Positions 3,712-52,258 of a DNA stretch of 64,000 nucleotides are shown one piece after another. Where the stretch lies: positions 1-64,000 of the forward strand of contig JAPLHB010000203.1 in NCBI GenBank assembly GCA_026389845.1, in the 5' to 3' direction. The notes under the pieces are model-generated. The model was not told the origin of the DNA and did not search any database. It saw only the letters and a list, made by a program, of their open reading frames with translations. The DNA comes from Chloroflexota bacterium. GTDB taxonomy: Bacteria; Chloroflexota; Anaerolineae; CG2-30-64-16. The position numbers and the translations under genes are program-made. Each line of letters starts with the position of its first letter. The first letter of the stretch is position 1.

Positions 3712-6249
3712 ATGTCTGAAACTCAACACATCACACTGCCCGTCACCGGCATGACGTGCGCCAACTGCGTCGCCACCGTAGAGCGCAACCTTAAAAAACT
3801 GGATGGCGTGCAGGCCGCCGTGGTTAACCTGTCGTCCGAGCGCGCGAGCGTGGAGTTCGACCCCGTCAAGCTGGGGTTGGCCGATCTGATCGCACGCGTG
3901 GAGTATATCGGCTATGGTGTCGCCACCGGCGAGGCGGACCTGGTCATCAAGCGCCTGGCCGACGACAGCGACGCGCGGCGCCTCGAAAACGCCCTGCGCA
4001 AGCTGGAAGGCGTGCTCGAAGCCCAGGTGACCTACGCAGCCGAGAAAGCCCGCGTCAAGTACGTGCCGACCATCGTCAGCCAGGCGGAGATCCGCCGCGT
4101 CGTGGCTGCGGCCGGCTTCGAGGCCCTGGAGCTGGGCGGGGATGCGGAAGACGCCGAAGCGGCAGCCCGCCAGCACGAGATCAACACCCAGCGCCGCCTG
4201 CTGACCATCGGCCTGCTGTTCACCGTGCCGCTGTTCCTCTTGTCCATGGGCAAGGATGCCGGCCTGCTGCCCGCGTTCGTCTACAACCCGAGCGCCGCGG
4301 CCCACTTGGGCGGGATGCGCGAGGCTCAGCCGTGGTTCAACTGGGTGCTGTTGGCGCTGGCGCTCCCGGTGCAGTTCTACGTCGGCTGGCAATACTACAT
4401 CGGCGCGGCCAAGGCGTTGCGCAACCGCGCGGCCAACATGGACGTGCTGATCGCGCTGGGTTCCTCGGCGGCCTTCTTCTACAGCCTGCCCATCACCTTC
4501 GGCTGGCTGAGCGGGCACGTCTACTTCGAAACCGCCGCGGTGATCATCACCCTCATCAAGCTGGGCAAATTCCTCGAGGCGCGCGCCAAGGGGCGCACCA
4601 GCGAGGCGATCAAAAAGCTGATGGGGCTGCGCGCCAAAACCGCGCGCGTGGTGCGCGATGGGGCCGAGCTGGAGATTCCGGTTGACGACGTCAGGGTGGG
4701 CGATCTGGTCCTGGTTCGGCCGGGGGAGAAGATTCCGGTGGATGGGGTGGTCGTCGAGGGGCGCTCGGCGGTGGACGAATCCATGCTCACCGGCGAATCG
4801 CTGCCGGTGGAGAAGCAGCCCGGTGATCCGGTCATCGGCGCAACGCTGAACAAGTTGGGCCTGCTCAAATTCGAAGCCACTAAGGTCGGCCGGGAGACAG
4901 CGCTCGCCCAGATCGTCCGGCTGGTCGAGGAAGCCCAGGCCAGCAAGGCGCCGATCCAGAAGCTCGCCGACCAGGTCTCCGGCGTGTTTGTGCCGGCGGT
5001 GATCGCCCTGGCCGCGCTGACGTTCGTGGGCTGGTACTTTTTCGGCCCGCCGCTGGCGGTCAACGCCGACATCAACGCGTTCACGCGCGCGCTCGTCAAC
5101 ATGGTGGCCGTGCTGGTCATCGCCTGCCCCTGCGCGATGGGGTTGGCCACGCCGACGGCCGTCATGGTGGGCACTGGCCGGGGCGCGGAGCTGGGCATCC
5201 TATTTCGCAGCTCCGAGGCCCTGGAGCGCGCCGGCAAGGTGGGCGTCGTCGTGCTGGACAAGACGGGGACGATCACCAAAGGCCAGCCCGCGGTGACCGA
5301 CATCGTGACCGACGGGCAGATCACGCCGGATGAGCTGCTGCGCGCCGCCGCCTCGGTGGAACGGGGCAGCGAGCATCCCCTCGGCGAAGCCATTTGGGCC
5401 GAAGCGACCGCCCGCGGCCTGGCCCTCATCGAGCCACAGGGTTTCCAGGCCGAGGCCGGCCAGGGCGTCGAGGCCGAGGTGGACGGCCGCCGCGTCGCGG
5501 TGGGCAACCTGCGCATGATGGCAGCCCGCGGCTACCCGCTGAACAGCCTGGAGACCGCGGTCGAGCGTCTGCAAGCCGAGGCCAAGACCGCCATGCTCGT
5601 GTCGGTGGATGGCGCGGTGCGGGGCGTGATCGCCGTGGCCGATACGGTCAAGGACGGCTCGCGCGAAGCAATCGCCGAGCTGCGCCGCATGGGCCTGCGG
5701 GTCGTCATGCTCACCGGCGACAACCGCCGCACCGCCGAAGCGATTGCCGGCCAGGTGGGCGTGGACGACGTACTGGCCGAGGTGCTGCCGGGCGACAAGG
5801 CCGCGCATGTGAAGGCGCTGCAAGATTTCGGATTTCGGATTTCGGATTTCGGATTACCTGCGGCGAATCAAGATCATCCGCAATCCGCATTCCGCAATCC
5901 GCAATCCATCGTCGCGATGGTAGGTGACGGCGTGAACGATGCGCCGGCGCTGGCGCAGGCCGACGTGGGCTTGGCGATCGGCACCGGCACGGACGTGGCG
6001 ATGGCGGCCGCGCCGGTCACCCTGATCAGCGGCGACCTGCGCGGGGTGGTGCGCGCCATCTCGCTCTCGCGCAAGACGCTGCGCACGATCAAGCAGAACC
6101 TTTTCTGGGCTTTCTTCTATAACATCATCCTGATCCCCACGGCCGCGCTCGGGTACTTGAACCCGATGCTGGCGGCCGGTGCGATGGCGTTCAGCAGCGT
6201 TTTTGTGGTCAGCAACAGCCTGCGCTTGCGCAGGCAGAGAATTGGATAG
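3712..6249 (+). CDS. copA: Copper-exporting P1B-type ATPase
   Basis: An 845-residue Cu(I) efflux pump of the inner membrane. The first heavy-metal domain carries GMTCANC (about residues 13-19). A second HMA-like domain (about 75-140) has the fold pattern but no CxxC, so it probably does not bind metal. The transmembrane metal site is CPC at 472-474. Other motifs are the TGES loop, phosphorylation motif DKTGT (D516), SEHP nucleotide motif and GDGVNDAP hinge (from G738). Residues 705-732 are an extra segment encoded by an in-frame palindromic repeat just before the hinge, in a loop where homologues are short. The gene is followed after 4 nt by the next ORF, forming a copper operon. Confidence 0.96.
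5824..5907. repeat. In-frame palindromic repeat inside copA
   Basis: The left arm consists of tandem GATTTCG/GGATTTCG units and the right arm of tandem AATCCGC units. The arms are roughly complementary around a short centre. The 84-bp element is an exact multiple of 3 and adds 28 codons (residues 705-732) without disrupting the ATPase frame. Confidence 0.75.
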
Positions 6250-6253
6250 TCTT

Positions 6254-7610: not shown

Positions 7611-7621
7611 ATGAAAAGCTA

Positions 7622-7891
7622 CGCGGAGAGCCACGAAAGGTTATCAGAAAAACCGCAATAGCGCAAAACTCGCTACCCGTGGCCTGTCATTCTGAGCGGG
7701 TCTGTCCCTGAACTCTCGTTACGGCGTGACACCAACGAAGAATCCTTCGTCGCACTCAGGACAGGTTCTCTTTGCGCGATGAGACCCTTCGCTGGATTCT
7801 CGCCGCAGCGCACCTCACGGGATCAACCCGCTCAGGGTGACAAAAGCGAGTTTTGCGGCACTGCGAAAAACCCTTCGTGGCTCTCTGCGCG
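7622..7891. repeat. Dispersed palindromic repeat, family 1, copy B with extra outer arms
   Basis: The core (7654-7865) starts GCAATAGCGCAAAACTCGC and ends GCGAGTTTTGCGGCACTGCG. Inside are TGTCATTCTGAGCGGGT near the left end and ACCCGCTCAGGGTGACA near the right end, an imperfect complement. Outside the core, a further inverted pair GCGGAGAGCCACGAAAGG (from 7623) and CCCTTCGTGGCTCTCTGCGC (7871-7890) encloses everything, so the whole region can fold into one nested hairpin. It fills the 303-bp gap between two convergent genes and may act as a bidirectional terminator. Confidence 0.8.
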
Positions 7892-12708: not shown

Positions 12709-12739
12709 GTGTGTTGCACCTTCCATGAGTTTATTCATG

Positions 12740-12950
12740 CAGTACCGCAAAACTTGCTATTGTCACCCTGAGCGGGTCAGCCCCGTGAGGTGTACTGCGG
12801 CAAGAATCCAGCGAAGGGTCTCGTTGCGGCAAGGAGAATTTGTCCTGAGCGCAGCGAACGGATTCTTCGCTGGCGTCACGCCGTAACGAGAGTTCAGGGA
12901 CAGACCCGCTCAGAATGACAGGCAACGGGTAGCGAGTTTTGCGCTATTGC
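12740..12950. repeat. Dispersed palindromic repeat, family 1, copy C
   Basis: Complete copy. The left arm is GCAGTACCGCAAAACTTGCT followed by TTGTCACCCTGAGCGGGTC; the right arm is GACCCGCTCAGAATGACA, then GCGAGTTTTGCGCTATTGC. It lies between kdgF-like and ogl in the same operon, so read-through must occur if they are co-transcribed. It ends 4 nt from the cupin stop codon. Confidence 0.8.
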
Positions 12951-18449: not shown

Positions 18450-18610
18450 TTAAAGACAGCTCCCAAAGACGCTCCACCGACAGTCAGTCTTGCCCCCGAC
18501 GAGGAATATCAGCCCGCGGCTTGTCCCAATCGGACAAAAAGCAGTCCCAAAAACACAAGACAGGGCAGGACCTTTGCGGTAGAATCATCAGGCCATGTTC
18601 AAAATCGGTT

Positions 18611-18729
18611 GTAGGGGCGGGTTTCTCCACGTCAACGGGAAGCTTCTCAATTTGTAGGGGCGCACCCTTGCGGTCGCCCCAGCGGGCAGACGCAAGGCCA
18701 TGCCCCTACCACGGAAAACCCGCCCCTAC
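18611..18729. repeat. Nested palindromic repeat, family 2 (GTAGGGGCGGG), copy 1
   Basis: The outer arms are GTAGGGGCGGGTTTCTCC and AAAACCCGCCCCTAC. The inner nested pair (18654-18709) is GTAGGGGCGCACCCTTGCG and CGCAAGGCCATGCCCCTAC. The flank TGTTCAAAATCGGTT and the arm up to AACGGGAAGCTTC recur in inverted orientation at 26682-26779 and just beyond. No gene is seen in the rest of the gap 18450-18765. Confidence 0.8.
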
Positions 18730-19158: not shown

Positions 19159-19199
19159 GGCCGATCGCCCGCCGCGCCGGGGATATACTCGGCACGGTC

Positions 19200-26685: not shown

Positions 26686-26779
26686 GGGCGGGTTTTCTGT
26701 GGTTGATGCTGGCCTGCCTGGTATGGCAGCAACGCGGTGCCGGCAAGCTTCCCGTCGACGCGGAGAAACCCGCCCCTAC
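26682..26779. repeat. Palindromic repeat, family 2, copy 2 (inverted relative to copy 1)
   Basis: The left arm GTAGGGGCGGGTTTTCTGTGG supplies the TAG stop of the preceding gene. The right arm ends GAGAAACCCGCCCCTAC and is followed by AACGGATTTTGAACA, the reverse complement of the flank of copy 1. It lies just before the start of the large uronate-utilisation operon. Confidence 0.8.
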
Positions 26780-26817
26780 AACGGATTTTGAACACGCCCC
26801 ATCGGGAAGAGGAAAAG

Positions 26818-29244
26818 ATGCCTGTTTACTATGCTCGCTATGAACTTGCAGACGGTTACATCCACAACTGGCTGTTCGCTGGCCCTCAGGCCATCCCCGT
26901 GCTTGACCTGGATCACTATCAGGGCCAGGACTGGAAGTTGCAGATTGCCCGCCATTACCACGTGCCAGGCACCTCGGAGGTGCCTGGCACGTCCCAACCT
27001 CCAGTACAGGACGAAGCCTTTGTGGTGGACGACACTGCGCTTACGTGGAAGTACTACCGCTGCGACGACGATCACTTCGTTGACTGCACGGCCTTTTATC
27101 ACATCTGCCATTACCTGCGCAGTTGGGCCTACAGTCGGGTCGTGAGTCCTGCGGCGCGGGAGGTGACGTGCATCCTGACGACCAACGGCCCGGCGGATGT
27201 CTGGCTGAACGGTAAGCACGTCCATCGCCATGAGCATTTCCATCATCAGATACCGGTGAGTGTCTCTTTTCGGGCCAAGCTGAAGAAAGGGCCAAACGAC
27301 TTCCTGGTGCGCTTTGAAGCGGTGGCGGCGCGCGAATGTCCGTATGCAATGGCGTTGCGGATCCTGGACCCATTGCCGGAAGCGTTCGTGTTCGTGCCAA
27401 CTTCACACGCGGGCGTGGCTCGCCGTCAAACTGTCGAAAGAGCCATTGAGGCGGCGTATCTGGATCGAGATGTGTACGTGTGGGACGACGACATCACCGT
27501 GCACTGGCCTGAGGAGATGGTTGCATCGGCCGAACTGACAGTTCGTCTCCAGAAACCATCGGGCTGGATCTATTCAGAGGCACGCCCGACCGTCTCGGCT
27601 GGATACAAGAAGTCCATGGGCCAGCCGTTTCAAGTGCCGGAGGGCCCATTCCAGATCTTCTTGATCCCCTCGCTGCAAGAGTATTACGAGGGCAATTTGC
27701 GTCTGGAACGCAAGGTCGCCTTGGCGGCGGTGCGCAACAAATACTCGCAGACCTCATACGGCACATTTGACGAGCGTCGCGGCGAGGCGCTAATGGATGC
27801 GGCTCGGCGTGAGATCAATCTCTTTTCCGAGATCGCCAAGATGGCGCTGGGCGATTGGGCCGATGTGAAGAACGACGTGATCCTGGAGGCCATCGAGGGG
27901 ATCAACCAACGCAAGGATTGCAGCGACTTCTACCTGGTCGGCCTATTGGGGATGTTGCAGCGCTACGGCGACGATCCCTCATTCCCGGAGTCACTCAGGC
28001 AGCCGCTCGAGGCGTGTGTCCTCAACTTCAAATACTGGGCAGACGAGCCGGGCGCTGATTCGATGTGGTTCTGGTCGGAAAACCACCAAATTCTGTTTCA
28101 CGCCTGCGAGATCCTGGCCGGTCAGCTTTATCCGGAGCGCACCTTTACAAACGCCGACCAGACCGGTCAATGGCATCGCGAAAAAGGCGAACGCCTGGCG
28201 ATTTCCTGGCTGCTCAAGCGCGGCGCGGGCGGCTTCAGCGAATGGGACTCGAACTGCTATTTCGAAGAGGACCTGCTGGCCCTTTCGCACCTGGCTGACC
28301 TGGCCGATAGCCAGCCCGTCTATGACCTCGCCACCGTCATCATGGACAAGATGTTTCTGACGATGGCGCTCAATTCGTACAAGGGGACGTTCGGCTCAAC
28401 CCACGGGCGTACCTACACCCCGCACATCAAAGGCGCGCGCGGGGAATCCACCGCAGGCATCAGCCGTCTGATGTGGGGCATGGGCGTTTTCAACGACAAG
28501 ATCCTGGCAACGGTCAGCCTGGCGTGCGTGGAGAACTACGGATTTCCGCGCATCATCGGCGACATCGCCGCCGACCTGCCCGAGGAGATGTGGAACCGCG
28601 AGCGCCACGCGGGCACATATGAAGAGTGGCGCGACCGGGCGGCGGGCGACTGGGAAGTGAACAAGGTGACGTACAAGACGCCGGATTCCATGCTCTGCTC
28701 CGCACAGGACTACCATCCGGGCGCAAAGGGCGTCCAGGAGCACATCTGGCAGGCCACTTTCGGGCCGGACGCCGTCGCCTTTGTCACGCATCCGCCCTGC
28801 CTGAGCGAAGAGGGCTCGCACCGTCCCGGCTTTTGGCATGGGAACGTGGTTCTGCCGCGCGTGGCGCAGTGGAAGGACGTGCTCGTCGCGGTTCACAAAC
28901 TGCCGGACGACGACTGGCTGGGCTTTACGCACGCCTATTTCCCCGCCTGGGCGTTTGATGAGCACCTGGGCCGTGCTGCGCTCGACGGCGATTTCGGCGC
29001 TTTCCAAGACAAGATCCTCGCACTGGATGTGGCTTTTGGCGACCTGGCGATGCGCTGTGCCACCCTGCGCGGCGACATGTTGGCCTTCGGCTGGGAAGGA
29101 GCGTTCTTGCGCAACGAGCAGCCGCAGCCGCTTTCCGGCTTCAAGCACTATGACAACCCGTACTGCGTTGCCGACTTGCCCGCTGCGGAGTTGGAGGTTC
29201 GTTACGGCGACCAGGTCATGCGGCTGAACTTTGCGGCTGGGTGA
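26818..29244 (+). CDS. Large protein of unknown function, paralogue of 33204-35798 (putative carbohydrate-active toroid)
   Basis: 808 residues, soluble, no signal peptide. The N-terminal about 330 residues look beta-rich (carbohydrate-binding-like: TTNGPADVWLNGKHVHRH). The central part (about 350-620) looks like an alpha/alpha barrel with the conserved run KDCSDF, FKYWADEPG, WSENHQILFHACEILAGQLY and GFSEWDSNCYFEEDLLAL, then FGSTHGRTYTPHIKG. The same motifs are shared with 33204-35798. Invariant His/Glu/Asn/Tyr residues suggest an active site of a polysaccharide lyase or glycoside hydrolase, but no known family is recognised. Residues about 48-58 come from an in-frame palindrome. It is the first gene of the operon with radical SAM and GH67; the start is ATG 26818 after GAAGAGGAAAAG. 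Confidence 0.72.
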   Translation: MPVYYARYELADGYIHNWLFAGPQAIPVLDLDHYQGQDWKLQIARHYHVPGTSEVPGTSQPPVQDEAFVVDDTALTWKYYRCDDDHFVDCTAFYHICHYLRSWAYSRVVSPAAREVTCILTTNGPADVWLNGKHVHRHEHFHHQIPVSVSFRAKLKKGPNDFLVRFEAVAARECPYAMALRILDPLPEAFVFVPTSHAGVARRQTVERAIEAAYLDRDVYVWDDDITVHWPEEMVASAELTVRLQKPSGWIYSEARPTVSAGYKKSMGQPFQVPEGPFQIFLIPSLQEYYEGNLRLERKVALAAVRNKYSQTSYGTFDERRGEALMDAARREINLFSEIAKMALGDWADVKNDVILEAIEGINQRKDCSDFYLVGLLGMLQRYGDDPSFPESLRQPLEACVLNFKYWADEPGADSMWFWSENHQILFHACEILAGQLYPERTFTNADQTGQWHREKGERLAISWLLKRGAGGFSEWDSNCYFEEDLLALSHLADLADSQPVYDLATVIMDKMFLTMALNSYKGTFGSTHGRTYTPHIKGARGESTAGISRLMWGMGVFNDKILATVSLACVENYGFPRIIGDIAADLPEEMWNRERHAGTYEEWRDRAAGDWEVNKVTYKTPDSMLCSAQDYHPGAKGVQEHIWQATFGPDAVAFVTHPPCLSEEGSHRPGFWHGNVVLPRVAQWKDVLVAVHKLPDDDWLGFTHAYFPAWAFDEHLGRAALDGDFGAFQDKILALDVAFGDLAMRCATLRGDMLAFGWEGAFLRNEQPQPLSGFKHYDNPYCVADLPAAELEVRYGDQVMRLNFAAG
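26960..26992. repeat. In-frame 33-bp palindrome (family 4, copy 1)
   Basis: Perfect palindrome of two 16-nt arms (ACGTGCCAGGCACCTC and its complement) around one G. It encodes the HVPGTSEVPGTS segment of the 26818 protein. A longer relative occurs in frame at 52002-52055. Confidence 0.85.
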
Positions 29245-29254
29245 CCGGCGCGCC

Positions 29255-31042: not shown

Positions 31043-31053
31043 AGGTCGCCAAC

Positions 31054-33189
31054 ATGAGAGGCGAAGACGGCTACGAACTGTGGTTACGATATCGCCGGGT
31101 GGATGATGCGGACCACTTGGCGCAATACCGCGAGACGATCCGCAGTGCGGCAGTGCTCGGTACAGGCGCAACAGCCGCGATCATACGCAGTGAGCTTGGC
31201 CGGGCGCTGCCCGTCCTGCTGGACAACTCGGTGCCGATCTCCCGAGAGCCGTCCGGCAGCGCCCTGGTCGTGGGCACGGCTGACGAACTGGCAGCCGTCG
31301 GTGTGACCCTAGCACAGGCCGAGCGCCGCCGTTTGGGCGAGGAAGGGTTCTTGATCCGTCATCATCAGACCGAGAGCAATAACTGGCTTCTCATTGGGGG
31401 CAACTCCGGGCCGGCCGTTCTGACGGGGATATTCCACTTCCTGCGGCTGCTCCAGACGCACCAGAATATTCACGCCCTCGACCTTATGAGCCGCCCCCGG
31501 ATCCGCCACCGCATCCTCGCGCACTGGGACAATCTCGACGGCTCCATCGAGCGCGGCTACGCGGGGCGATCGCTGTGGAACTGGGATGAGCTGCCGAGAC
31601 GCATAGACCCGCGCTACCACGACTATGCCCGAGCCTGCGCCTCCATCGGCATCAACGGCGCCTGCCTGAACAACGTTAACGCCAGCGCCAGAAGCCTGAC
31701 CGCCGAATACCTGGAGAAAGCCGCCGCGCTGGCGGATGTCTTCCGGCCCTATGGTATGCGCGTCTACCTATCGCCCGTTTTCTCCGCCCCTATGGTGCTC
31801 GGGGGCCTGTCCACCAGCGACCCGCGAGACCCGGCCGTCGCCGCGTGGTGGCGGCGCAAGGCAGATGAGATCTATCGTCTGATCCCGGACTTCGGCGGTT
31901 TCCAGGTCAAGGCGAACTCGGAGGGGCAGCCGGGCCCGCAAGACTACGGCGCAAACCATGCCGATGGCGCCAACATGCTCGCCGATGCGCTCGCGCCGCA
32001 TGGCGGCATGGTGCTCTGGCGCGCCTTCGTCTACGATACGACCGTTGACGCGGACAGGGCTAAGTGCGCCTACAAGGAATTTGTGCCCCTGGATGGCAGG
32101 TTCCGCCCCAACGTTTTCGTGCAGGTGAAGAACGGCCCGGTTGATTTCCAGCCGAGAGAACCGTTCCATCCCCTCTTTGGCGCCATGAAAGGGACGCCCC
32201 TGGCGTTGGAGCTCCAGATCACCCAAGAATACCTCGGCCAGTCGGTTCATCTGGTCTACCTGGGCCCCATGTGGGAGGAGATCCTGGGGTCGGATACCTG
32301 TGCTGACGGAGCAGTCCCTCATGCCCCACGTGTCGCCGCGGAGCATGACAGTGGGCCGCGGATGGGCGCGGACGGACGCGGATTTTCCTCTTTATCCGCG
32401 CTTATCCGCAACGATCCGCGGCCTGTTCTCGGGGCCGGTTCGACGGTCGCCGAGGTTGTGGATGGCTCGTTGAACGAGCACGCTACCTCGTGCATCATCG
32501 GCGTCGCCAACACCGGCTCCGATCGCAATTGGTGCGGCCATCACTTCGCCCAGGCAAACTGGTATGCCTTCGGCCGCCTTGCCTGGGATGACAGCCTGAG
32601 CGCCCAAACGATCGCCGACGAATGGACTCGCATGACCTGGTCGAGCGACCCGTCTGTGGTGGACGCGATCGAGACGATGATGCTTGGCTCCTGGGAATCC
32701 TGCATCAACACCATGACCCCGTTGGGCCTGCATCACCTCATGCAGGAAGGCCATCACTATGGGCCTGATCCGGGTTTCCAGGCCGCGAAACGCGTGGACT
32801 GGAACAACGTTTACTTTCATCGGGCTGATAAGCGTGGCATCGGCTTTGACCGCAGCAGCACCGGCAGCAATGCGGTTAGCCAGTATCACCGCCCCTTGCG
32901 CGAGCAGTTCGATGAAATTGAGATCTGTCCTGAAAAGTTCCTGCTGTGGTTTCATCACGTGCCCTGGGATCATCGCCTCCCATCCGGCAGCACACTCTGG
33001 GGGGAGTTACAGCATCGCTACGATGCGGGCGTCGCCTTTGTCGAACGGATGCGTGACATCTGGCAGGATGTGCAGGCCGGAATTGACCCCCAGCGTCACG
33101 CGCACGTCAGCCGGCGACTGGAGCAGCAGCTAGATAACGCGCGCTTGTGGCGACAGGTGTGCATCCACTACTTCAGTCAGTTTAGGTGA
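31054..33189 (+). CDS. Alpha-glucuronidase (GH67)
   Basis: A 711-residue GH67 enzyme that removes (4-O-methyl-)glucuronic acid from xylo-oligosaccharides. There is no signal peptide, so it is intracellular. Conserved blocks are AHWDNLDGSIERGYAG, NGACLNNVNA, FQVKANSEGQPGP (E290, fits the general acid), YKEFVPLDG (D347), VKNGPVDFQPREP (E369) and FQ-type QITQEYLGQ, with a C-terminal WFHHVPWDHRLPSG. Residues 434-457 (GPRMGADGRGF...) derive from an in-frame palindromic repeat inserted in a loop after the catalytic barrel core. ATG 31054 follows the radical SAM gene by 11 nt. Confidence 0.95.
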   Translation: MRGEDGYELWLRYRRVDDADHLAQYRETIRSAAVLGTGATAAIIRSELGRALPVLLDNSVPISREPSGSALVVGTADELAAVGVTLAQAERRRLGEEGFLIRHHQTESNNWLLIGGNSGPAVLTGIFHFLRLLQTHQNIHALDLMSRPRIRHRILAHWDNLDGSIERGYAGRSLWNWDELPRRIDPRYHDYARACASIGINGACLNNVNASARSLTAEYLEKAAALADVFRPYGMRVYLSPVFSAPMVLGGLSTSDPRDPAVAAWWRRKADEIYRLIPDFGGFQVKANSEGQPGPQDYGANHADGANMLADALAPHGGMVLWRAFVYDTTVDADRAKCAYKEFVPLDGRFRPNVFVQVKNGPVDFQPREPFHPLFGAMKGTPLALELQITQEYLGQSVHLVYLGPMWEEILGSDTCADGAVPHAPRVAAEHDSGPRMGADGRGFSSLSALIRNDPRPVLGAGSTVAEVVDGSLNEHATSCIIGVANTGSDRNWCGHHFAQANWYAFGRLAWDDSLSAQTIADEWTRMTWSSDPSVVDAIETMMLGSWESCINTMTPLGLHHLMQEGHHYGPDPGFQAAKRVDWNNVYFHRADKRGIGFDRSSTGSNAVSQYHRPLREQFDEIEICPEKFLLWFHHVPWDHRLPSGSTLWGELQHRYDAGVAFVERMRDIWQDVQAGIDPQRHAHVSRRLEQQLDNARLWRQVCIHYFSQFR
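32353..32423. repeat. In-frame palindromic repeat inside GH67 (family 5, copy 1)
   Basis: The left arm begins GGGCCGCGGAT with a following GGACGCGGAT, and the right arm has TTATCCGC and GATCCGCGGCC. It adds about 24 codons between the QITQEYLG region and the later AEVVDGS block without a frameshift. Related copies lie at 45620 and 47659. Confidence 0.8.
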
Positions 33190-39200: not shown

Positions 39201-39201
39201 G

Positions 39202-39257
39202 GTAGGGGCACGGCCTTGCGCCTGCCCACGTGGGCGACCGCAAGGGATCGCCACTAC
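39202..39257. repeat. Palindromic repeat, family 2, copy 3
   Basis: Short inner-type copy: GTAGGGGCACGGCCTTGCG at the left and CGCAAGGGATCGCCACTAC at the right, the reverse complement of the inner element of copy 1. It starts 1 nt after the cupin stop and ends 5 nt before the RBS of the next gene. Confidence 0.75.
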
Positions 39258-39275
39258 GCACAAGGAGGATCAGCG

Positions 39276-43165: not shown

Positions 43166-44323
43166 ATGCAGTCACGAGCAGATCAGCCACTCGTCACGGC
43201 AGACGGGCCCTCCCAAAGTGATGGGACTTCGTGGTCGGTCCGCATGGCGGATTCGATGCTCAAGAGGCATCCCGTCTCGCTCATGCGCTGGCGCTACGAG
43301 GACGGGTTCCTGGTCAAAGCCATCGAACAGGTCGGGCTGAGGACGGGGGAAGCCAGATACTGGCAGGCGGTCGTGGATTACGTGGATCGCTTCGTCAAGC
43401 CGGACGGTAGCATCGGCACCTACTGTCTGGCCGACTACAACCTCGATCAGGTGAACCCCGGCAAGCTGCTCTTCCCAGTCTACCGGGCCAATGGTGCGGA
43501 AAGGTACCGGCAGGCTATCTGCCTGCTGCGCGAACAACTGCGCCTGCAGCCGCGCACGCACGCCGGCGGCTTCTGGCACAAGCTGATCTATCCCCACCAG
43601 ATGTGGCTCGACGGCATCTACATGGGGTCCCCCTTTTATGCCCAATACGCCGCGACCTTCGATGAGCCGGCCGCCTTCGACGATGTCGTGCACCAGATCA
43701 TCACCATTGAGCAGCACACGCGCGACCCGAAAACCGGCTTGCTCTACCACGCGTGGGATGAGAGCCGGCAGCAGCGTTGGGCCAACCCCAGCACCGGTTG
43801 GTCGCCGCATTTCTGGTGCCGCGCCATCGGCTGGTACGTGATGGCGCTCGTGGACGTGCTGGACACCCTGCCCGCCAGTCACCCCCAGGCGGCGACGATC
43901 ATCGCCATCCTGGAGCGCACGCTGGCAGCGTTGCTCGCGGTGCAGGATCCGGCCACTGGTCTGTGGTATCAGGTGCTCGATCAAGGAGACCGGCCCGGCA
44001 ACTACCTGGAAGCCTCTGGCGCGTGCATGTTCGTGTATGCGATGGCCAAGGGCGTCCGCAAGGGTCATCTGCCGCCGCACTGGCTGGATGTGGCGCGGCG
44101 GAGCTACCAGCAGATCGTGGAGCGTTTCATCCAGGTGGATGCGCTGGGCGAGACCAATTTGCACTGGACTTGCGGCATGGCGGGACTCGGCGGCGATCCC
44201 TACCGCGATGGCAGCTACGAGTATTACGTTACCGAGAGAGTGGTCACGAACGACCCCAAAGGCTCGGCCGCTTTCATCCTGGCCGCAGTCGAGATGGAGA
44301 TCGGTAACTTGGGAGATCGGTGA
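43166..44323 (+). CDS. Unsaturated rhamnogalacturonyl hydrolase (GH105, YteR-like)
   Basis: A 385-residue GH105 (alpha/alpha)6 barrel. It hydrates the 4,5-double bond of unsaturated galacturonosyl-rhamnose released from rhamnogalacturonan I. YteR-type blocks are MADSMLKRHPVSLMRWRYED, YNLDQVNPGKLLF, GGFWHKLIYPHQMWLDGIYM (catalytic Asp at about 149), HTRDPKTGLLYHAWDESRQQ and SPHFWCRAIGWYVMALVDVL. No signal peptide, so it acts after import. The N-terminal SQSDGTSWS contains one unit of the 21-bp repeat found in the hybrid regulator (43213-43233). Confidence 0.96.
   Translation: MQSRADQPLVTADGPSQSDGTSWSVRMADSMLKRHPVSLMRWRYEDGFLVKAIEQVGLRTGEARYWQAVVDYVDRFVKPDGSIGTYCLADYNLDQVNPGKLLFPVYRANGAERYRQAICLLREQLRLQPRTHAGGFWHKLIYPHQMWLDGIYMGSPFYAQYAATFDEPAAFDDVVHQIITIEQHTRDPKTGLLYHAWDESRQQRWANPSTGWSPHFWCRAIGWYVMALVDVLDTLPASHPQAATIIAILERTLAALLAVQDPATGLWYQVLDQGDRPGNYLEASGACMFVYAMAKGVRKGHLPPHWLDVARRSYQQIVERFIQVDALGETNLHWTCGMAGLGGDPYRDGSYEYYVTERVVTNDPKGSAAFILAAVEMEIGNLGDR
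43213..43233. repeat. Single in-frame unit of the 21-bp repeat
   Basis: CCAAAGTGATGGGACTTCGT matches the tandem units at 15988-16071 with one mismatch and again encodes SQSDGTS. It lies near the N-terminus of the GH105 enzyme, before the conserved domain. Confidence 0.7.
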
Positions 44324-44338: not shown

Positions 44339-45652
44339 ATGCTTGACGTGCGGAACTTCGGCGCGACCGGCGATGGCCTAGCCCTCGACACGCTGGCCAT
44401 CCAGGCGGCTATTGATGCCTGCGGCGCGGCAGGCGGTGGGACGGTCTACTTCGGGGTGGGCCGTTACGCCACCGGGGCGCTGTTCCTGCACAGCCACGTG
44501 ACGCTCGACCTCGACGCCGGCGCCACCTTACTGGGCAGCGAGGACCCGGCCGACTACCCGATCATCGGCAGCCGCTGGGAAGGCGTCGAGCAAGAGACGC
44601 ACGCGCCGCTGATCGGCGGCTGCCAGCTCGAAGGCATCGCAATCGCGGGGCGGGGCACGGTGGATGGCCGTGGCGCCGCCTGGTGGCGAAGATTCCGAGA
44701 CGGCGCCTTGCGCTATCCCCGGCCGCGGCTGATCTCGTTCGTGGATTGCCAGAACGTCTTGATCGAAGGCGTCACTCTGACCCGCTCGCCCAGTTGGACG
44801 ATCAACCCGGTGCGCTGCCGTAACGTCACGGTTGACAAGGTAACCATCGTCAACCCCGCCGATTCGCCCAATACCGACGGTATCAATCCAGACTCGTGCC
44901 GCAACGTGCACATCTCCAACTGCCACATAGACGTCGGCGACGACTGTATCGCACTCAAATCCGGCACCGAAGACGAGGACAGTGACAAACGCGCCCCCTG
45001 CGAGAACGTCACGATCACAAATTGCACGATGGTGCATGGCCATGGCGGCGTCGTGATCGGCAGCGAGATGTCGGGCGGCATCCGTAACGTCGTCATCGCC
45101 AATTGTGTCTTCGAGGGCACCGACCGCGGGATCAGGCTCAAATCGCGGCGCGGCCGCGGCGGGGTCGTGGAAGACATCCGCGTGACCAACGTCATCATGG
45201 TGGGTGTATTGTGCCCGTTCACGGTGAACCTCTACTATGCCTGCGGCGCGTGGGGCGACAAGACCGTTGCCGACAAGCGGCCTCATGCCGTGACCGCGGG
45301 GACGCCGCGCTTTCGTCGCATTCACCTGAGCCACATTACCGCGCGCGACGCGAAACTGGCGGCCGGATTCGTGTGTGGGCTGCCCGAGATGCCCGTGGAG
45401 GACGTGTCGCTCGACGACGTTGCGATCTCGATGGTGGGCGAGGCCGAACCGGGGTACCCCGAGATGGCCGACGACATGGAGCTGATGCAGGGGGCCGGGC
45501 TGTACGTCCGCCATGTCCGAGGCTTGCGGTTGCAGGACGTCGCGATCACAGGGCAACGGGGGCCGGCTCTGCTGCTGGATGACGCGACCGAACAATTGGC
45601 CGTCACTTTGCCTGACGATAGGCCGCGGATGAACGCAGATAAACGCGGATAG
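44339..45652 (+). CDS. Polygalacturonase-like glycoside hydrolase (GH28)
   Basis: A 437-residue right-handed parallel beta-helix. GH28 signatures are NTDG (Asp180), GDDC (Asp201-Asp202), GHGG (His235) and RLK in GIRLKSRRGRGG, so the catalytic set is complete. N-terminus MLDVRNFGATGDGLALDTLA is typical, and no signal peptide is present, so it is likely an exo-acting intracellular enzyme on imported galacturonides. RBS AGGGGGA. The last about 12 residues (DDRPRMNADKRG) and the stop TAG come from a family-5 repeat arm rather than from the ancestral gene. Confidence 0.95.
   Translation: MLDVRNFGATGDGLALDTLAIQAAIDACGAAGGGTVYFGVGRYATGALFLHSHVTLDLDAGATLLGSEDPADYPIIGSRWEGVEQETHAPLIGGCQLEGIAIAGRGTVDGRGAAWWRRFRDGALRYPRPRLISFVDCQNVLIEGVTLTRSPSWTINPVRCRNVTVDKVTIVNPADSPNTDGINPDSCRNVHISNCHIDVGDDCIALKSGTEDEDSDKRAPCENVTITNCTMVHGHGGVVIGSEMSGGIRNVVIANCVFEGTDRGIRLKSRRGRGGVVEDIRVTNVIMVGVLCPFTVNLYYACGAWGDKTVADKRPHAVTAGTPRFRRIHLSHITARDAKLAAGFVCGLPEMPVEDVSLDDVAISMVGEAEPGYPEMADDMELMQGAGLYVRHVRGLRLQDVAITGQRGPALLLDDATEQLAVTLPDDRPRMNADKRG
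45620..45652. repeat. Palindromic repeat arm, family 5, copy 2
   Basis: GGCCGCGGATGAACGCAGAT followed by AAACGCGGATAG matches the left half of the copy at 47659. It encodes the GH28 C-terminus and its TAG stop. Confidence 0.65.
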
Positions 45653-45661: not shown

Positions 45662-46837
45662 ATGAAATCGAAAGGAATGCAACCTGTGGCGACGACAGAT
45701 GGCATGCCACAACGTTCCGAGTCCCGCAGCCAGCGGTACGCGCTGGCCCTGGATTTCGCAGCGAAACAGTTGCGCCACCTGAGCGAGACCTGTCCCGATT
45801 CCTTCCCGATCTACACGGTCGGGGGCAAGTGGCTGCACGGCGGCGAGGCGTGGACCAACTGGTGCGAAGGCTTCCTCGGCGGCCAGCTCTGGCTGCTCTA
45901 CGGGCGCACGGGCGAGCCTTACTGGCGCGGCCAGGCCGAACACACCTCGCGTTTGATCGAGCACCGGGTCAAAGACCGAAGCGTCCACGACTTGGGCTTT
46001 CTCTTCTGGTCCACCTGGAAGCGCTGGTATGACCTGACGCACGACGAGGCGGTCAACGCCGTGGTGGTCGAGGCGGGTCAGACGTTGGCCCTGCGCTTCA
46101 AGGAACGGGGAGGATACCTGCGCTCCTTCGTGGCCGACGAGAGCCTCTTCATAGACATCATGATGAACGTCGGCATCATCTTCTATGCCGCCCAGCAGAC
46201 CGGGGATGCTGACTTGTTGCGCATCGCAACGCAGCACTGCCTGACGACCCGGCGCTATCTGGTGCGCGGCGACGGCAGCACCGCGCATGAGGGCATCTTC
46301 GACACCGCCACCGGCGAGTTCCTGCGCCAGAGCACACACCAGGGCTGGCGCGGCGACTCGGCCTGGGCGCGCGGCCAGGCCTGGGCACTCTATGGGTTTG
46401 GCACGGCCTATCGCTTCACCCGCGATGCCCGTTTCCTGCAGACCGCGGAGGCGTGCGCGAACTTCTACATCGAGCGTACCCCCGCCCACGGCGTTCCGCC
46501 TAACGACTGGGATGAGCCGAATCCCGTGTTGCCCTACGAGAGTTCGGCCGCTGCGATCGCGGCCAGCGGAATGCTTAGCCTGGCAAAGCTCACCGGCGAC
46601 CCGGCCCGCGCCATACTGTACCGTGACTATGCTGTGCGCATCCTGGATACCCTGACCAGCCCCGAATTCCTGGCAGTCGAGACACCCGGCTGGGAAGGCA
46701 TCCTGAAGCACGGCATGTATCACCAGCGCAAGGGGCTGGGAGTGGACGAGAGCGTGATGTGGGGCGACTACTTCTTCCTGGAGGCGTTGAGCAAGGCGCT
46801 GGGGAGCGAATCAGCGAATCAGCGAATCAGCGAATGA
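45662..46837 (+). CDS. Unsaturated glucuronyl/galacturonyl hydrolase (GH88)
   Basis: A 391-residue GH88 (alpha/alpha)6 barrel that hydrolyses unsaturated uronic acids from lyase products. Landmarks are [30 protein letters not shown] (Asp110), [14 protein letters not shown] (Asp165), [20 protein letters not shown] and [19 protein letters not shown] at the end of the domain. The final residues [10 protein letters not shown] are encoded by an octamer tandem repeat that continues through the stop into the next gene. No signal peptide. Confidence 0.95.
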
Positions 46838-46883
46838 ACGAATGAACGAATCAGCAAATCAGCGAAGCAGTGAATCGGCGAAG
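46804..46883. repeat. 8-bp tandem repeat spanning a stop and a start codon
   Basis: Ten consecutive octamers of the type CAGCGAAT (variants GAACGAAT, CAGCAAAT, CAGTGAAT, CGGCGAAG) cover the end of GH88 and the first about 14 codons of the SDR gene. As 8 is not a multiple of 3, a change in copy number would shift the frame of both ends. Confidence 0.9.
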
Positions 46884-47654
46884 GGACGCGTGGCGTTGGT
46901 GACCGGGGCGAGCCGGGGGATCGGCCGCGCGATTGCCGTGGCCCTGGCCGGGGATGGCTGGACGGTTGTGGTCAACTATCAGGCCAATGCAGAGGCCGCG
47001 GCTCAGGCCTTGGCCCAGGTGCAGGCCGCGGGCGGGCAGGGGGTGACGATCCAGGCCGACATCGCCGACGCGGCCGACCGGGAGCGGCTGGTGCAGGAGA
47101 CGTTGTCCCGCTACGGACGGATTGATCTGTTGGTGAACAATGCGGGCGTGGCCCCGCGCCAACGCGTGGATCTGTTGGAAGCGACCGAAGCCAGCTACGA
47201 CGAGGTCATGGCCGTCAACCTGAAAGGGCCGTTCTTCCTAACGCAGCGCGTGGCACAGGTGATGATCGCGCTCCTGGCGGCCGGAGCCATTCAACGGCCG
47301 AAGATCGTCAACATCGGCTCGATAAGCGCCTACACCAGCAGCACGAACCGGGGAGAGTATTGTCTCTCCAAGGCCGGCATCGGGATGATGACCCAGCTCT
47401 ACGCCGACCGGCTGGCTGAATATGGCATCAACGTCTACGAGGTTCGGCCCGGCATCGTCGAAACCGACATGACGAGCGCGGTGCGCGAGAAGTATGATCG
47501 GCTGATTGCCGCTGGGCTGACGCCGTTTCGCCGCTGGGGCCGGCCCGAAGACGTGGCCCTGGCCGTTCAGATGATCGCGGCCGGGCGGCTCCCGTTTTCG
47601 ACCGGCGAAGTGATCAACGTGGACGGCGGCTTTCACCTACGCCGGCTGCCCTGA
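46842..47654 (+). CDS. Short-chain dehydrogenase/reductase (FabG/KduD-like)
   Basis: A 270-residue classical SDR. NADP-binding [20 protein letters not shown], structural NNAG in [12 protein letters not shown], catalytic Ser in [10 protein letters not shown] and YxxxK in EYCLSKAG, plus a C-terminal [15 protein letters not shown]. The first about 14 residues ([14 protein letters not shown]) are encoded by the octamer repeat and do not belong to the fold, so the native start may be the GTG near 46889 or a repeat-derived ATG at 46842. In the locus it may act as a keto-deoxy-uronate dehydrogenase (KduD role), though closest in look to generic ketoreductases. Confidence 0.88.
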
Positions 47655-47658
47655 GAAC

Positions 47659-47730
47659 GGGCCGCGGATGTGCGCGGATCAACGCGGATGGAGGAGAAAA
47701 TCCGCGTCCATCCGCGTTGATCCGCGGCCC
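47659..47730. repeat. Palindromic repeat, family 5, copy 3 (intact, intergenic)
   Basis: Near-perfect palindrome. The right arm complement is GGGCCGCGGATCAACGCGGA and the left arm is the same with a TGTGCG insertion. The centre is GGAGAAAATCC. It lies 4 nt after the SDR stop and 60 bp before the next gene, and is the intact relative of the elements inside GH67 and GH28. Confidence 0.85.
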
Positions 47731-47790
47731 AGTTTCATCCGCCGTGGCGCTAGGCGTGCATGGACATCTACCCTGAAATCGGAGCAAGAC

Positions 47791-49281
47791 GTGACCACTT
47801 ATCGTCGCGTAGCGGCCCTGAAGACACCCGCCGCGTTGGCCGAACACCTGGCGCAGATCGGCGTTGACCTGCCCTTCGACGAACACGTGCAGACTGGCGC
47901 CGACGCGCCGCTGGCGCAGCCGTACCGCCTGCCCGGCGGCAGCATCGTGGGCAACCGCTGCGCCATTCTGCCGATGGAAGGTTGGGACGGAACCCTGGAC
48001 GGCCGCCCCAGCGAGCTGACCCTCCGGCGCTGGCGGCGGTTCGGCGCGAGTGGCGCCAAGCTGATCTGGGGCGGCGAGGCGGCGGCCGTGCGTCACGATG
48101 GCCGCGCCAACCCCAATCAACTGCTCGTCAACGAAGCCACCCTCGGCGAGCTGGCCGCGTTGCGGCAGGCGCTCGTGGCCGAGCACGAGGCGCAATGGGC
48201 CAGCAGCGACCTGCTGATCGGCCTGCAGCTCACTCATTCCGGTCGTTTTGCGCGGCCGAACGGGGTGAAACTGGAACCGGCGATCCTCTACCATCACCCC
48301 TGGCTCGACCGCAAGTTCGGCATCCCAGCCGACTACCCGCTGATGAGCGACGGCGAGATCGCCAGGCTGGTAGACGACTTCGCGACGGCCGGCCGCCTGG
48401 CTCAACGCGCCGGCTTCGCATTCGTGGATGTCAAGCACTGCCACGGCTACCTGGGGCACGAGTTCCTGAGCGCCGTTGAGCGGCCAGGGCGCTACGGCGG
48501 CAGCTTCGAGAACCGGACGCGGTTTCTGCGCGAGGCGGTTGCTGCCATCCGAGCGGCCGCCGCGGGCCTGATGATCGGCGTGCGGTTGAGCGCGTTCGAC
48601 TTCATGCCGTTCCGGCCGGGACCGGATGGGGTCGGTGAGCCGGATTGGCCGGATGTAGGGGCGACCCTCGCGGTCGCCCGCGGGGATGAGGGCGGACGCA
48701 AGGCCCGCCCCTACCCCTACGCGTTTGGCGGTGATGGCACAGGGTTGGGTATAGACCTGCGCGAACCACGGGCGACCCTGGACCTGCTTGTCGAGCTGGG
48801 TATCCCCCTGGTGTGCATCACCGGCGGCAGCCCCTACTACAACCCCCACATCCAACGCCCTGCCATCTTCCCGCCGTCCGATGGCTACAAGCCGCCGGAG
48901 GACCCGCTGATCGGCGTGGCGCGGCAGATCGCGGTCACCGCACAGCTCAAGGCGCACCGCCCCGAGCTGCTGGTCCTCGGCTCGGCGCTTTCTTACCTCC
49001 AGGAGTGGCTGCCAAACGTGGCCCAGGCTGTGGTGCGCCAGGGCATGGCTGACTTCGTTGGGCTGGGCCGCATGGCCCTGTCATACCCCGACATGATCGC
49101 CGACGTGCTGGCTGGGCGGCCTTTGCAACGCAAGCGCATCTGCCGCACCTTCAGCGACTGCACAACCGCGCCGCGCAAGGGGTTGGTCTCCGGCTGCTAT
49201 CCGCTGGATGAATACTATCGGGAACGCCCGGAAGCCCGGTATCTCCATCCAGTCCCTTCGCAGAGTAACCGGATAGATTGA
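47791..49281 (+). CDS. OYE-type NADH:flavin oxidoreductase
   Basis: A 496-residue FMN-dependent TIM-barrel reductase (Oxidored_FMN). Blocks are [55 protein letters not shown] (conserved His pair), [20 protein letters not shown], and [20 protein letters not shown] near the C-terminus. A Cys-rich tail [20 protein letters not shown] could hold a metal or cluster, but this is unproven. GTG 47791 is chosen because GGAG lies 6 nt upstream and the N-terminus then matches the domain. Residues about 289-308 ([20 protein letters not shown]) come from an in-frame family-2 repeat. Confidence 0.9.
48655..48714. repeat. In-frame palindromic repeat, family 2, copy 4, inside the OYE gene
   Basis: Starts GTAGGGGCGACCCTCGCGG and ends GACGCAAGGCCCGCCCCTAC. 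The 60-bp element is a multiple of 3 and encodes about 20 extra residues in a loop between barrel strands. The same family is intergenic at 18611, 26682 and 39202. Confidence 0.85.
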
Positions 49282-49327: not shown

Positions 49328-49345
49328 GGCGCCCGGAGGCGACCT

Positions 49346-52258
49346 GTGCCCATCTCTGCACCCCTCCTCGCCACCAAGCTCACCGTTCCACCGCCGCGGC
49401 CGGCCCTGGTGGCCCGCCCGCGTCTGATGGCGCGCCTGGCGGACGGGCTGGCACGGCCGGTCACGCTGATCTCGGCGCCTGCAGGATTCGGCAAGACGAC
49501 AGTGGTAGCGGAATGGCTGCACGACTCGGCAGGGGAGAAAGGGAGCAGGGGAGCGGAGGAGCAAGGAATGCTCTCCTCTGCCCCCCTCCCCCCCTGCTCC
49601 CCCGCCCAAACCGCCTGGCTCTCCCTCGACGAGGGCGACAACGATCCCGTGCGTTTCTTCGCCTATCTCATTGCCGCCCTGCAGAACCTGGATCCCGCGC
49701 TGGGCCAGGCCGCGCAGGCCCTTCTGATGGCCCAACCGCCGCCACCGATCGAGACACTGGTCGCGACGCTGGTCAACGATCTGACCGGCAGAGCAGCCGC
49801 GACGGCGCTGGTTCTGGACGATTATCACCTGATCCATAGCGACGCGGTGCACCAGGCCCTGCGTTTTTTGGTCGAACATCAGCCGCCGAACCTGCACCTG
49901 ATTCTGGTCAGCCGAGAAGACCCGCCCTTGCCCTTCTCGCGACTGCGCGTGCGCGACCAGATCGTCGAGCTGCGCGAGGCCGATCTGCGCTTCACGCCGG
50001 AAGAAGCCGCCGCCTTCCTGACCCGCACGATGGGCCTGAGCCTCGCTCCCACAGCGATCGCCGACCTCGCCGAGCGCACCGAAGGCTGGATTGCCGCGCT
50101 GCAGATTGCGGGGCTTTCGCTGCAGAATCGCCGCGACGCCGAAGCGTACATTGCCGCCTTCCGCGGGGATGACCGCTACGTCATGGACTACCTGATGGAC
50201 GAGGTCTTCGACCGCCAGCCGCCGGAGATCCAGGACTTCCTGCTCCAGACCTCGATCCTAGAGACCTTGTGTGGTTCGTTGTGCGATGCGCTCTTGTGGA
50301 AGAGGGCAGAGGAGCAAGGGAGCAGAGGAGCAGGTGAGAAACGGAACGCCAGGGTCGCATCCCCCTTGCCCCCCTGCGCCCCTGCCCCCCCAGCGCAGGC
50401 CATTCTCGAACACCTCGACCGCGCCAACCTCTTCCTCGTGCCGCTGGACAACCGGCGCGAATGGTATCGCTACCACCGCCTCTTCGCCGATCTGTTGCGC
50501 TACCGGTTGCAGCGCAGCTATCCGGAACGCCTGCCAGAGCTGCACCGCCGTGCCTGCCGCTGGTACGCCGAGGCCGGTGACTCCGACGAGGCGATGCGGC
50601 ACGCGCTCGCCATCCCCGACCCGACCCTGGCGGCCGACCTGGCCGAACGCTACCTGCTGCACCTGATCGGGAGCAGCCGGATCGTCACCTACCTGGGCTG
50701 GATCCAACGGCTGCCGGCGGAGATCGTCCGCGGTCGCGCCTACCTGGCCGCGGGCTGCGGCTGGGCAACCGTGCTGGTCAACCAGCCCGAGGCGGCTCTT
50801 AGTTATGTCAACAGCGGAGAGATTGCCCTGCCCCACTACGAGCCGGTGGTCAGCGCGCCCGAAGGCCGGCAGATCACCCGGGCTGAGGTGGCCGGCAACC
50901 TGGCGGCCATCCGCTCCTATGCCGACCGGCTGCGTGGAGACCTGACCGGCGCTGTCGAGCACGCGCGGCAGGCCCTCGCCGCGCTCCCAGCCGAAGCCGA
51001 CGCGATCCGTTGCGCGGTAGCCCTCAACCTGGGGTTGTTGCACCTGGACGACGGCGAGCTTGAGCCGGCGCGGCAGGCCCTTTACGAGGCGTTCGAGGCA
51101 GCCAGGCGCTCTCACACCAACGCCTACGCCGCCGTCAGCGCGCTGAGCCAGTTGGGCGGCATCGCAGCCATGCAGGGGAAGCTCAGGGAGGCGGAAGGCT
51201 TCTTCCAGCGCGCTGTCCGCTACGGGGCCGACGAAGCGGGAGTGGCCGCTTCAGCGCCAGGGGTCGGGATCGCCCACGGCTGGCTGATGTGGCTGCACAC
51301 CCAGCGCAATGAGCTTCCCGCAGCTCAGGAGCACCTCGACCGCGTCCTGGAGGCCGCGGGGCAGATGGGCGCGCCCGCGACCACGGCCCGCGCCACCATC
51401 TACCAGGCGTTGCTGGCTCAACGCCGCGGCGAGTTAGATGCAGCCACAGTGTGGTACGCGCAGGCCGAAGAGCTGCTGCGGGCGCACCCGAGCGGCGGCC
51501 TCATCCAGACGGAATGGACCGCCTTCCGCGGACAGCTCCACCTGCTGCAAGGCGACAGCGCGGCCGCGGCCGGACTGCTGGCGGCGCAGGGTCTCAAGCC
51601 CGGCGACCTGGAGGAGCAGCCCACGCGCTGGTTGAGGCCGCGGTTGGCCGGTTACGTGCTGCTGGCTCGTGTCCTGGCCGCGCGGGGCGCCAGCCAGCAG
51701 GCCGACGGCCTGCTGGAGCGGGTGTCCGCGCTCGCCGAGCGCATCCCCAACACCGAGGCGCTGCTGGAGGCGCTCGCGCTCCACGCTACTCTGCACGGGG
51801 ATACGTCGCGCGGACTGGCATCGCTGGCGCGTGCGCTCAACCTGGCCGCGGCCGAAGGCTTCGTCGCCCCATTTCTGGCTGCGGGCGAGCCTCTGGTTAA
51901 GCTGTTGCGCCGCGCCATCTCGGACGGCATCCAGCCCGGCTTTGCCCAGCATCTGCTGGCCCAGTTGGCGGAAGAGGAACGCAGGCGGGCTATTGCCGGC
52001 CACGTGCCAGGCGCCTCCGAGGTGCCTGCGAAGTCCCGCGACAGCGGGGGCACGTCTCGCTTGATCGAACCCCTCACCGACCGCGAGCGGCAGGTGTTGC
52101 GCTTGCTGGCGGCCGGCCTCTCCAGCACCGAGGTAGCCGAAGAGTTGGTCATCTCGGTCAGCACCGCCCGCTCGTACATCAAGAGCCTCTACGGCAAGCT
52201 CGACGCACACAGCCGGCAAGAAACGATCGAGCGTGGGCGCCGGTTCGGGCTGCTGTGA
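49346..52258 (+). CDS. MalT-like ATP-dependent LuxR-family transcriptional activator
   Basis: A 970-residue STAND-type regulator. N-terminal NTPase with Walker A SAPAGFGKTTVVAEWL and Walker B-like TALVLDDYHLI, a helical MalT-type arm, a TPR-rich central/C-terminal region (about 480-860), and a LuxR HTH (LTDRERQVLRLLAAGLSSTE, about 908-970). It would oligomerise on an inducer plus ATP to activate catabolic genes, here plausibly the adjacent uronate locus. Three segments (about 62-87, 319-349, 886-904) are encoded by in-frame palindromic repeats; the last lies just before the HTH. GTG start with RBS GGAGG. Confidence 0.94.
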   Translation: MPISAPLLATKLTVPPPRPALVARPRLMARLADGLARPVTLISAPAGFGKTTVVAEWLHDSAGEKGSRGAEEQGMLSSAPLPPCSPAQTAWLSLDEGDNDPVRFFAYLIAALQNLDPALGQAAQALLMAQPPPPIETLVATLVNDLTGRAAATALVLDDYHLIHSDAVHQALRFLVEHQPPNLHLILVSREDPPLPFSRLRVRDQIVELREADLRFTPEEAAAFLTRTMGLSLAPTAIADLAERTEGWIAALQIAGLSLQNRRDAEAYIAAFRGDDRYVMDYLMDEVFDRQPPEIQDFLLQTSILETLCGSLCDALLWKRAEEQGSRGAGEKRNARVASPLPPCAPAPPAQAILEHLDRANLFLVPLDNRREWYRYHRLFADLLRYRLQRSYPERLPELHRRACRWYAEAGDSDEAMRHALAIPDPTLAADLAERYLLHLIGSSRIVTYLGWIQRLPAEIVRGRAYLAAGCGWATVLVNQPEAALSYVNSGEIALPHYEPVVSAPEGRQITRAEVAGNLAAIRSYADRLRGDLTGAVEHARQALAALPAEADAIRCAVALNLGLLHLDDGELEPARQALYEAFEAARRSHTNAYAAVSALSQLGGIAAMQGKLREAEGFFQRAVRYGADEAGVAASAPGVGIAHGWLMWLHTQRNELPAAQEHLDRVLEAAGQMGAPATTARATIYQALLAQRRGELDAATVWYAQAEELLRAHPSGGLIQTEWTAFRGQLHLLQGDSAAAAGLLAAQGLKPGDLEEQPTRWLRPRLAGYVLLARVLAARGASQQADGLLERVSALAERIPNTEALLEALALHATLHGDTSRGLASLARALNLAAAEGFVAPFLAAGEPLVKLLRRAISDGIQPGFAQHLLAQLAEEERRRAIAGHVPGASEVPAKSRDSGGTSRLIEPLTDRERQVLRLLAAGLSSTEVAEELVISVSTARSYIKSLYGKLDAHSRQETIERGRRFGLL
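49530..49607. repeat. In-frame purine/pyrimidine palindrome, family 6, copy 1
   Basis: Left arm AGGGGAGAAAGGGAGCAGGG and further GGAG repeats; right arm CCCCTCCCCCCCTGCTCCCC. It encodes GEKGSRGAEEQ...PLPPCSPAQ between the Walker A helix and the following conserved TAWLSLDEGDNDP strand of the NTPase domain. Confidence 0.85.
50301..50391. repeat. In-frame purine/pyrimidine palindrome, family 6, copy 2
   Basis: Left arm AGAGGGCAGAGGAGCAAGGG and further GGAG units; right arm CCCCCTTGCCCCCCTGCGCC and CCTGCCCCCC. It encodes RAEEQGSRGAGEK...SPLPPCAPAPP in the same regulator, between LCDALLW and AILEHLDRANLFL. Confidence 0.85.
52002..52055. repeat. In-frame palindrome, family 4, copy 2
   Basis: Begins ACGTGCCAGGCGCCTCCGAG and ends GCGGGGGCACGT, with an internal TCCCGCGACAGCGGG hairpin. 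It encodes HVPGASEVPAKSRDSGGTSR immediately before the LuxR helix-turn-helix. Related to the 33-bp palindrome at 26960. Confidence 0.8.

Follow-up and report, generated by a model that had tools for sequence, protein, structure and literature searches.

Introduction

How do short palindromic repeats come to lie in frame within protein-coding genes, and does one process put them there? The question is raised by a window of 64,000 nt from a Chloroflexota bacterium (GCA_026389845.1, contig JAPLHB010000203.1, positions 1-64,000, forward strand), in which several element families are found within genes. The original prediction held that each element had been inserted in frame and between conserved blocks, and that the common behaviour of unrelated families reflects a general process, or a shared insertion machinery, creating new protein segments. 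Here we compare the host genes with their orthologues, and follow the element families through the source genome, a draft assembly of 6.84 Mb (228 contigs, 8% contamination), and through its relatives.

Results

Elements in the window and their host genes

All the elements listed in the original prediction were present where it had placed them, and all lie within open frames. They occupy nine sites on the forward strand:

5824..5907, + strand, family A heptamer hairpin (GATTTCG)n...(ATCCGCA)n in the copA ORF (3712-6249), encoding 28 aa
15987..16070, + strand, family B, four 21-nt tandem units CCCAAAGTAACGGGACTTCGT in the hybrid sensor kinase ORF (14327-18205)
26960..26992, + strand, family C 33-bp palindrome ACGTGCCAGGCACCTCGGAGGTGCCTGGCACGT in the 26818-29244 protein gene, encoding HVPGTSEVPGTS
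32346..32435, + strand, family D CGCGGAT-type hairpin in the GH67 alpha-glucuronidase ORF (30994-33189)
43212..43232, + strand, family B, one 21-nt unit close to the N-terminus of the GH105/GH88 ORF (43166-44323)
48655..48716, + strand, family E GTAGGGGCGACC..GGTCGCCC..CGCCCCTAC (the GTAGGGGCG element) in the OYE-type ORF (47668-49281), encoding 20 aa
49535..49610, + strand, family F GGAGCAG-type heptamer hairpin, copy 1, in the MalT-like ORF (49346-52258)
50300..50395, + strand, family F, copy 2, in the same MalT-like ORF (49346-52258)
52000..52037, + strand, degenerate family C copy in the MalT-like gene, ahead of the LuxR domain, encoding HVPGASEVPAKS

Further copies, to which no strand is assigned, lie between genes or at gene starts:

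7654..7866, family H composite repeat, intergenic
~2021-2171, 12739-12950, 18199-18437, 19191-19381 and 40729-40968, other family H copies, intergenic
18591..18710, family E copies, intergenic
26745..26799, family E, ahead of the 26818 gene, called non-coding by the gene model
39201..39257, family E, at the beginning of ORF 39216-40736
45613..45650, incomplete family D copy, intergenic
47652..47749, family D, at the beginning of the OYE ORF, called non-coding by the gene model

An octamer array, AGCGAATC, is also seen at 46805-46882, between or at the start of genes, with relatives elsewhere in the sample (family G).

Alignment with orthologues upheld in-frame insertion at most of the nine sites, cleanly so in copA and GH67. 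In copA, query residues 705-730 (26 aa) are missing from PDB 3j09, and the site in other genera is a short loop of 27-36 nt. In GH67, residues 440-479 (40 aa) are missing from PDB 1gqi, and a clean 41 aa are absent from G027 and G030, one of the orthologues being 84% identical. The predicted position between conserved blocks was not confirmed in GH105, where the unit at 43213 precedes the first conserved residue and is itself followed by an alternative ATG. This unit may therefore be upstream of the true start and untranslated, which makes in-frame insertion doubtful here. Family B (15987 and 43212) is made of a 21-nt tandem unit, with no clear palindrome, and is almost private to the window. 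At the third MalT copy (52000), a possible insertion, the palindrome is present but degenerate. Among the remaining hosts, the hybrid kinase shows a net gain of 21 aa over its orthologue L314, about 21-28 aa at MalT copies 1 and 2 are absent from eight homologues, and the OYE protein exceeds its relatives by about 6-16 aa.

The 26818 protein gains only 4 aa net over 15 homologues; its C palindrome thus replaced or reshaped an existing loop. AlphaFold models the C segment of this protein as coil, flanked by a helix (39-47) and a strand (67-70), and pLDDT drops locally; a fold search returned only low TM-scores, to GH2-like enzymes. The refuting condition set out with the original prediction did not apply, since neither orthologues in other genera nor PDB homologues carry the segments. 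The central observation stands: several unrelated families lie in frame within genes, add protein segments and, in the case of D and E, have intergenic copies as well. The inserted segments are presumably translated.

For several of the genes in 26818-33189 and for the kinase gene (14327-18205), the closest relatives found were in G027, which belongs to another family (about 74-84% identity), and not in genomes of the same family. These G027-like genes possibly reflect transfer, or contamination of the assembly (8%).

Hairpins in the rest of the genome

The hairpin background was measured in stretches totalling 855 kb (12.5% of the genome), plus matched sites. According to a codon-model gene finder, 85.4% of the 855 kb is coding. 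A de novo scan of these stretches gave 159 strong hairpins, 118 intergenic, 40 within genes and one at a frame change, and at all 40 in-gene hairpins the reading frame is equal on both flanks. About 27 of the 40 are members of repeated families, of more than 10 sequence types; in-gene hairpins without repeats elsewhere were left out of the element count. Extrapolation from the 855 kb suggests about 200 in-gene hairpin insertions genome-wide. At a change of coding frame on C183 (G000:C183:110747-110807) lies a palindrome of 61 bp whose arms are long and perfect (score 28); it has no other copies in the sample.

Copy number, length and reading phase of family C

A first pattern for family C matched 62 times forward and 66 times in reverse, and not once in a reversed-pattern control. 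Since its fixed centre length could bias the lengths, the search was redone with exact arms and a variable centre, which yielded 82 sites of 33-35 bp in 6.84 Mb (control, 0). Of these, 61 were classified, a copy being called deep in a gene when at least 20 codons of the gene lay on either side. By this measure 29 of the 61 copies are deep in genes, and the remainder lie in intergenic sequence, between genes or a little ahead of gene starts. The in-gene fraction of 48%, against a coding density of 85% (p=5e-12), means that C is depleted in genes, but far less so than ordinary REPs. A strict C pattern matched solely Chloroflexota records in GTDB, an undercount because the pattern carried extra flanking bases.

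The two groups of copies differ in length, as the length check proposed with the original prediction anticipated: outside genes the copies are 33, 34 or 35 bp long, and exactly 33 bp is found in 27 of the 29 in-gene copies versus 15 of the 32 others (p=9e-5). Furthermore, 28 of the 29 in-gene copies are read in a single phase and only one in the other two phases together (p=9e-13). The 33-bp in-gene copies read xVPGT[SCFY][EQ]VPGTx, as in xVPGTSEVPGTx, so that dozens of unrelated proteins carry a 12-aa loop such as HVPGTSEVPGTS. Stops do not explain this preference, because all three C frames are stop-free, nor can the gene model create it, since an insert of 33 bp leaves the frames on its two sides equal whatever the phase. 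The same phase is seen in all seven in-gene C copies from G005, G007 and G009 (two genera), bringing the pooled count to 35 of 36 (p=5e-16), and further in-gene copies from G006 and one Chloroflexi record agree. In the relatives, 7 of 39 C copies are deep in genes, as with ordinary REPs; these sites came from the fixed-centre pattern and their lengths were left out. Among the 61 copies no host gene was found to be frame-broken by C, four same-strand cases of frame change being junctions of neighbouring genes, and no strong target motif was found in the bases flanking C copies, including those outside genes.

Host sites and their sharing between genera

By sequence resemblance we take the C hosts to include PheT, MtnA, RdgB, RecD2, a lipoyl E2 acyltransferase and an rRNA methyltransferase. 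For PheT, RdgB, MtnA and RecD2 one copy each is listed in the genome, and the inserted version is therefore presumably the working one. The insertion sites correspond to length-variable loops in orthologues, with clean gaps of 13-14 aa in those of RdgB, the C213 protein and the L125 protein.

Some C insertions occupy an identical site in two genera. Four sites are occupied in another genus too, those in RdgB and PheT in G006 and two more in G005. In three shared-site pairs of equal length the palindromes are identical at 31-32 of 33 positions, with flanks at 75-79%. Re-insertion into tolerant loops would account for this, as would homogenisation through template switching. In all three pairs L151/L187, L157/L164 and C58 80818/L293, the arms are kept and the trinucleotide at the centre is inverted, a change that template switching could bring about. 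A VWA-type protein (L137, G000:C90, about 2022-2130) carries a C element followed by half-element repeats, IEVPGTWMEVPGTWIEVPGTW, which suggests tandem growth after insertion.

Other families and the reading frame

The retained phase differs between families, phase 1 for C and phase 2 for the 33-bp copies of L and C', which argues against a fixed insertion phase. The peptide retained by C and L consists of 60-70% turn formers, contains no cysteine and has the least positive charge, whereas the alternative frames are cationic, bear cysteine or contain a stop. In family H, 41 of the 56 copies have no more than one of their six frames open, and none of the 56 was found within a gene. Family A is in genes at 9 of 14 classified places. 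Since 7 exceeds a multiple of 3 by one, the three frames on one strand of a heptamer array all spell the same cyclic peptide, and a stop-free heptamer unit is therefore open in all three. In four genera, G000, G004, G006 and G009 (L344, L321, L362 and window 5824-5907), the heptamer arrays in the copA loop differ, which indicates that tolerant loops are hit repeatedly. Given the free lengths of intergenic copies, the absence of H from genes and the difference in phase between families, frame keeping is better explained by selection after insertion.

A candidate transposase for family C

The genome has four matches to the transposase model PF01797, three of them above the cut-off. One, on contig C213, is a REP-associated tyrosine transposase (RAYT) with an intact frame, an HUH-like motif (NHYHF) and a tyrosine motif (RYIHANP); it is above the PF01797 cut-off and, at 75.5 bits, just below the cut-off of 80 for NF047646. 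C palindromes flank this RAYT at both ends, and they also flank its orthologue in G009, a second genus (89% identical). The C213 RAYT is thus associated with C palindromes, and it presumably moves them. A full-length orthologue is absent from most relatives with C copies, which are draft genomes. No transposase linked to A, B, D, E or F was found.

Several more distant RAYT loci in the class have palindromes of about 33-41 bp alongside, with long perfect arms and other sequence; some of these resemble C' and L, and other distant RAYTs show none. In an out-of-sample phase test, the palindrome of the G033 RAYT proved to have only two copies, both adjoining the RAYT. Three further Y1/RAYT-type transposases in the source genome (L001, L002 and L004) each lie beside a different palindrome (families I, J and K). 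A second relative of the C RAYT (L310, G000:C221:9835-10296) is about 46% identical and apparently interrupted.

Discussion

We consider it likely that the elements are a mixture of several independent selfish palindromic families, of at least two kinds, which were inserted broadly and then filtered by selection. The first kind would be C, together with C' and L elsewhere in the genome, near-perfect REP-type palindromes of 33-35 bp most likely moved by their own RAYT; the second would comprise the heptamer-array hairpins (A and F) and other hairpins (D and E). Elements of both kinds would land broadly across the genome, and selection would purge the copies that shift the frame, bring in stops, disrupt structured regions or encode harmful peptides. 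The survivors in genes would be frame-preserving, stop-free and located in loops and, for family C, almost always in the VPGTSEVPGT phase. Behind this proposal are direct observations on the insertions, their frame, length and phase statistics and the C-RAYT association, from which we infer that selection, not targeting, sets the phase of C. Several points weigh against it. The RAYT scores just below the NF047646 cut-off, most relatives with C copies lack its full-length orthologue, and some distant RAYTs have no adjoining palindrome. The favoured phase is so frequent (28 versus 1) that purifying selection on the peptide alone may be insufficient, and the near-identity of shared-site palindromes (31-32 of 33, flanks 75-79%) would imply recent re-insertion or homogenisation rather than simple decay.

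A further-reaching possibility, which we regard as unlikely, is that C is a protein-coding mobile cassette: linked to a transposase, a whole number of codons long, encoding a stop-free turn linker in either orientation, and neutral to useful for its host. If this were true, such a cassette would spread through genes and supply new protein segments across the proteome. Quite unlikely, in our estimate, is that the encoded peptide, for example a flexible VPGT turn, is useful and kept by positive selection as a distributed linker cassette. The very strong phase preference, the same-site copies with intact peptide in two genera and the half-element expansion IEVPGTWMEVPGTW in one protein would all be expected on this account, but the hosts are unrelated (PheT, RdgB, MtnA, RecD2 and others), orthologues manage without the segment, and DNA identity is kept as well as peptide identity, which fits recent mobility.

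The shared insertion machinery of the original prediction, placing all families in genes, is very unlikely. Many families behave alike in one genome, and different heptamer families hit the same copA loop. Against this, the architectures differ (a 33-bp palindrome, 7-nt arrays with unique spacers, a 21-nt tandem and hairpins of 60-90 bp), each of the four Y1 transposases found has a different palindrome beside it, and a cognate RAYT is tied only to C and similar palindromes, so that one general machinery could not be upheld. It is highly improbable that insertion by the transposase is tied to one codon phase by a target motif that tracks codon position, with selection playing a minor part: the 28:1 skew of C would follow directly, but C copies outside genes have no strong flanking motif, and the retained phase varies among families of one type (C in phase 1, L and C' in phase 2). 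Chance in coding sequence, low-complexity repeats or assembly error can practically be dismissed, for although the assembly is a draft of 228 contigs with 8% contamination and some in-gene hairpins without other copies resemble ordinary coding sequence, the control gave zero matches, the same elements occur in independent genomes, partly at the same sites, and orthologues show clean gaps.

The reading that we prefer, of independent families filtered by selection, places the elements beside several known systems. Intragenic REPs with a RAYT (TnpA-REP) have been described in Opitutus terrae, Thauera and others, where the stems are 5-13 bp, the REPs are mostly extragenic, and intragenic copies have been argued to be tolerable where they fall in loops or linkers (Di Nocera et al. 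2013, PMC3733652). Like these, C is a short multi-copy palindrome with some copies in ORFs and with a RAYT gene flanked by the palindrome. Unlike them, C has a 15-bp stem, about half of its copies in genes and a single reading phase. Its foot is without a clear GTAG or CGTC, being ACGT followed by C in 24 of 61 copies. Rickettsia palindromic elements (RPEs), of about 105-150 bp, are also found in frame in many unrelated genes, with several families per genome (PMC10969869, PMC2229807). The window elements resemble them in lying in frame in unrelated genes, in forming several families and in having copies between genes too, whereas C differs in its Chloroflexota lineage, its 33-bp units and its candidate transposase. 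We know of no transposase for RPEs.

Elements fused in frame to ORFs are also known from NEMIS/Correia and from enterobacterial RU/ERIC, and for NEMIS an open-frame version of 107 bp is found in genes and a stop-rich version of 155 bp is not (PMC2759123, PMC2229807). The contrast between the 107-bp and 155-bp versions parallels that between C and H here; selection after insertion predicts such a pattern, a point made earlier for NEMIS. Unlike C, however, NEMIS/Correia and RU/ERIC are larger, MITE-type elements with terminal repeats. Cyanobacterial STRR are tandem heptamer repeats. A and F share with them the tandem 7-nt units, but occur in another phylum and in protein genes, and have two opposed arms around a copy-specific spacer.

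In summary, the phenomenon is not new in kind, as intragenic REPs and RPEs are established. What looks new in degree is a RAYT-linked REP family with half of its copies in genes, in one phase, and with sites shared by two genera. Earlier accounts of in-frame palindromes, in Rickettsia and a small number of REP-rich genomes, mostly listed cases. In the present lineage one family has enough copies, and a candidate transposase beside it, for the shares of insertion and selection to be studied quantitatively. From the statistics of length, frame and phase it seems that a mobile element can persist in genes mainly through the one frame that encodes a harmless loop, and whether selfish palindromes build new protein segments thereby becomes directly testable.
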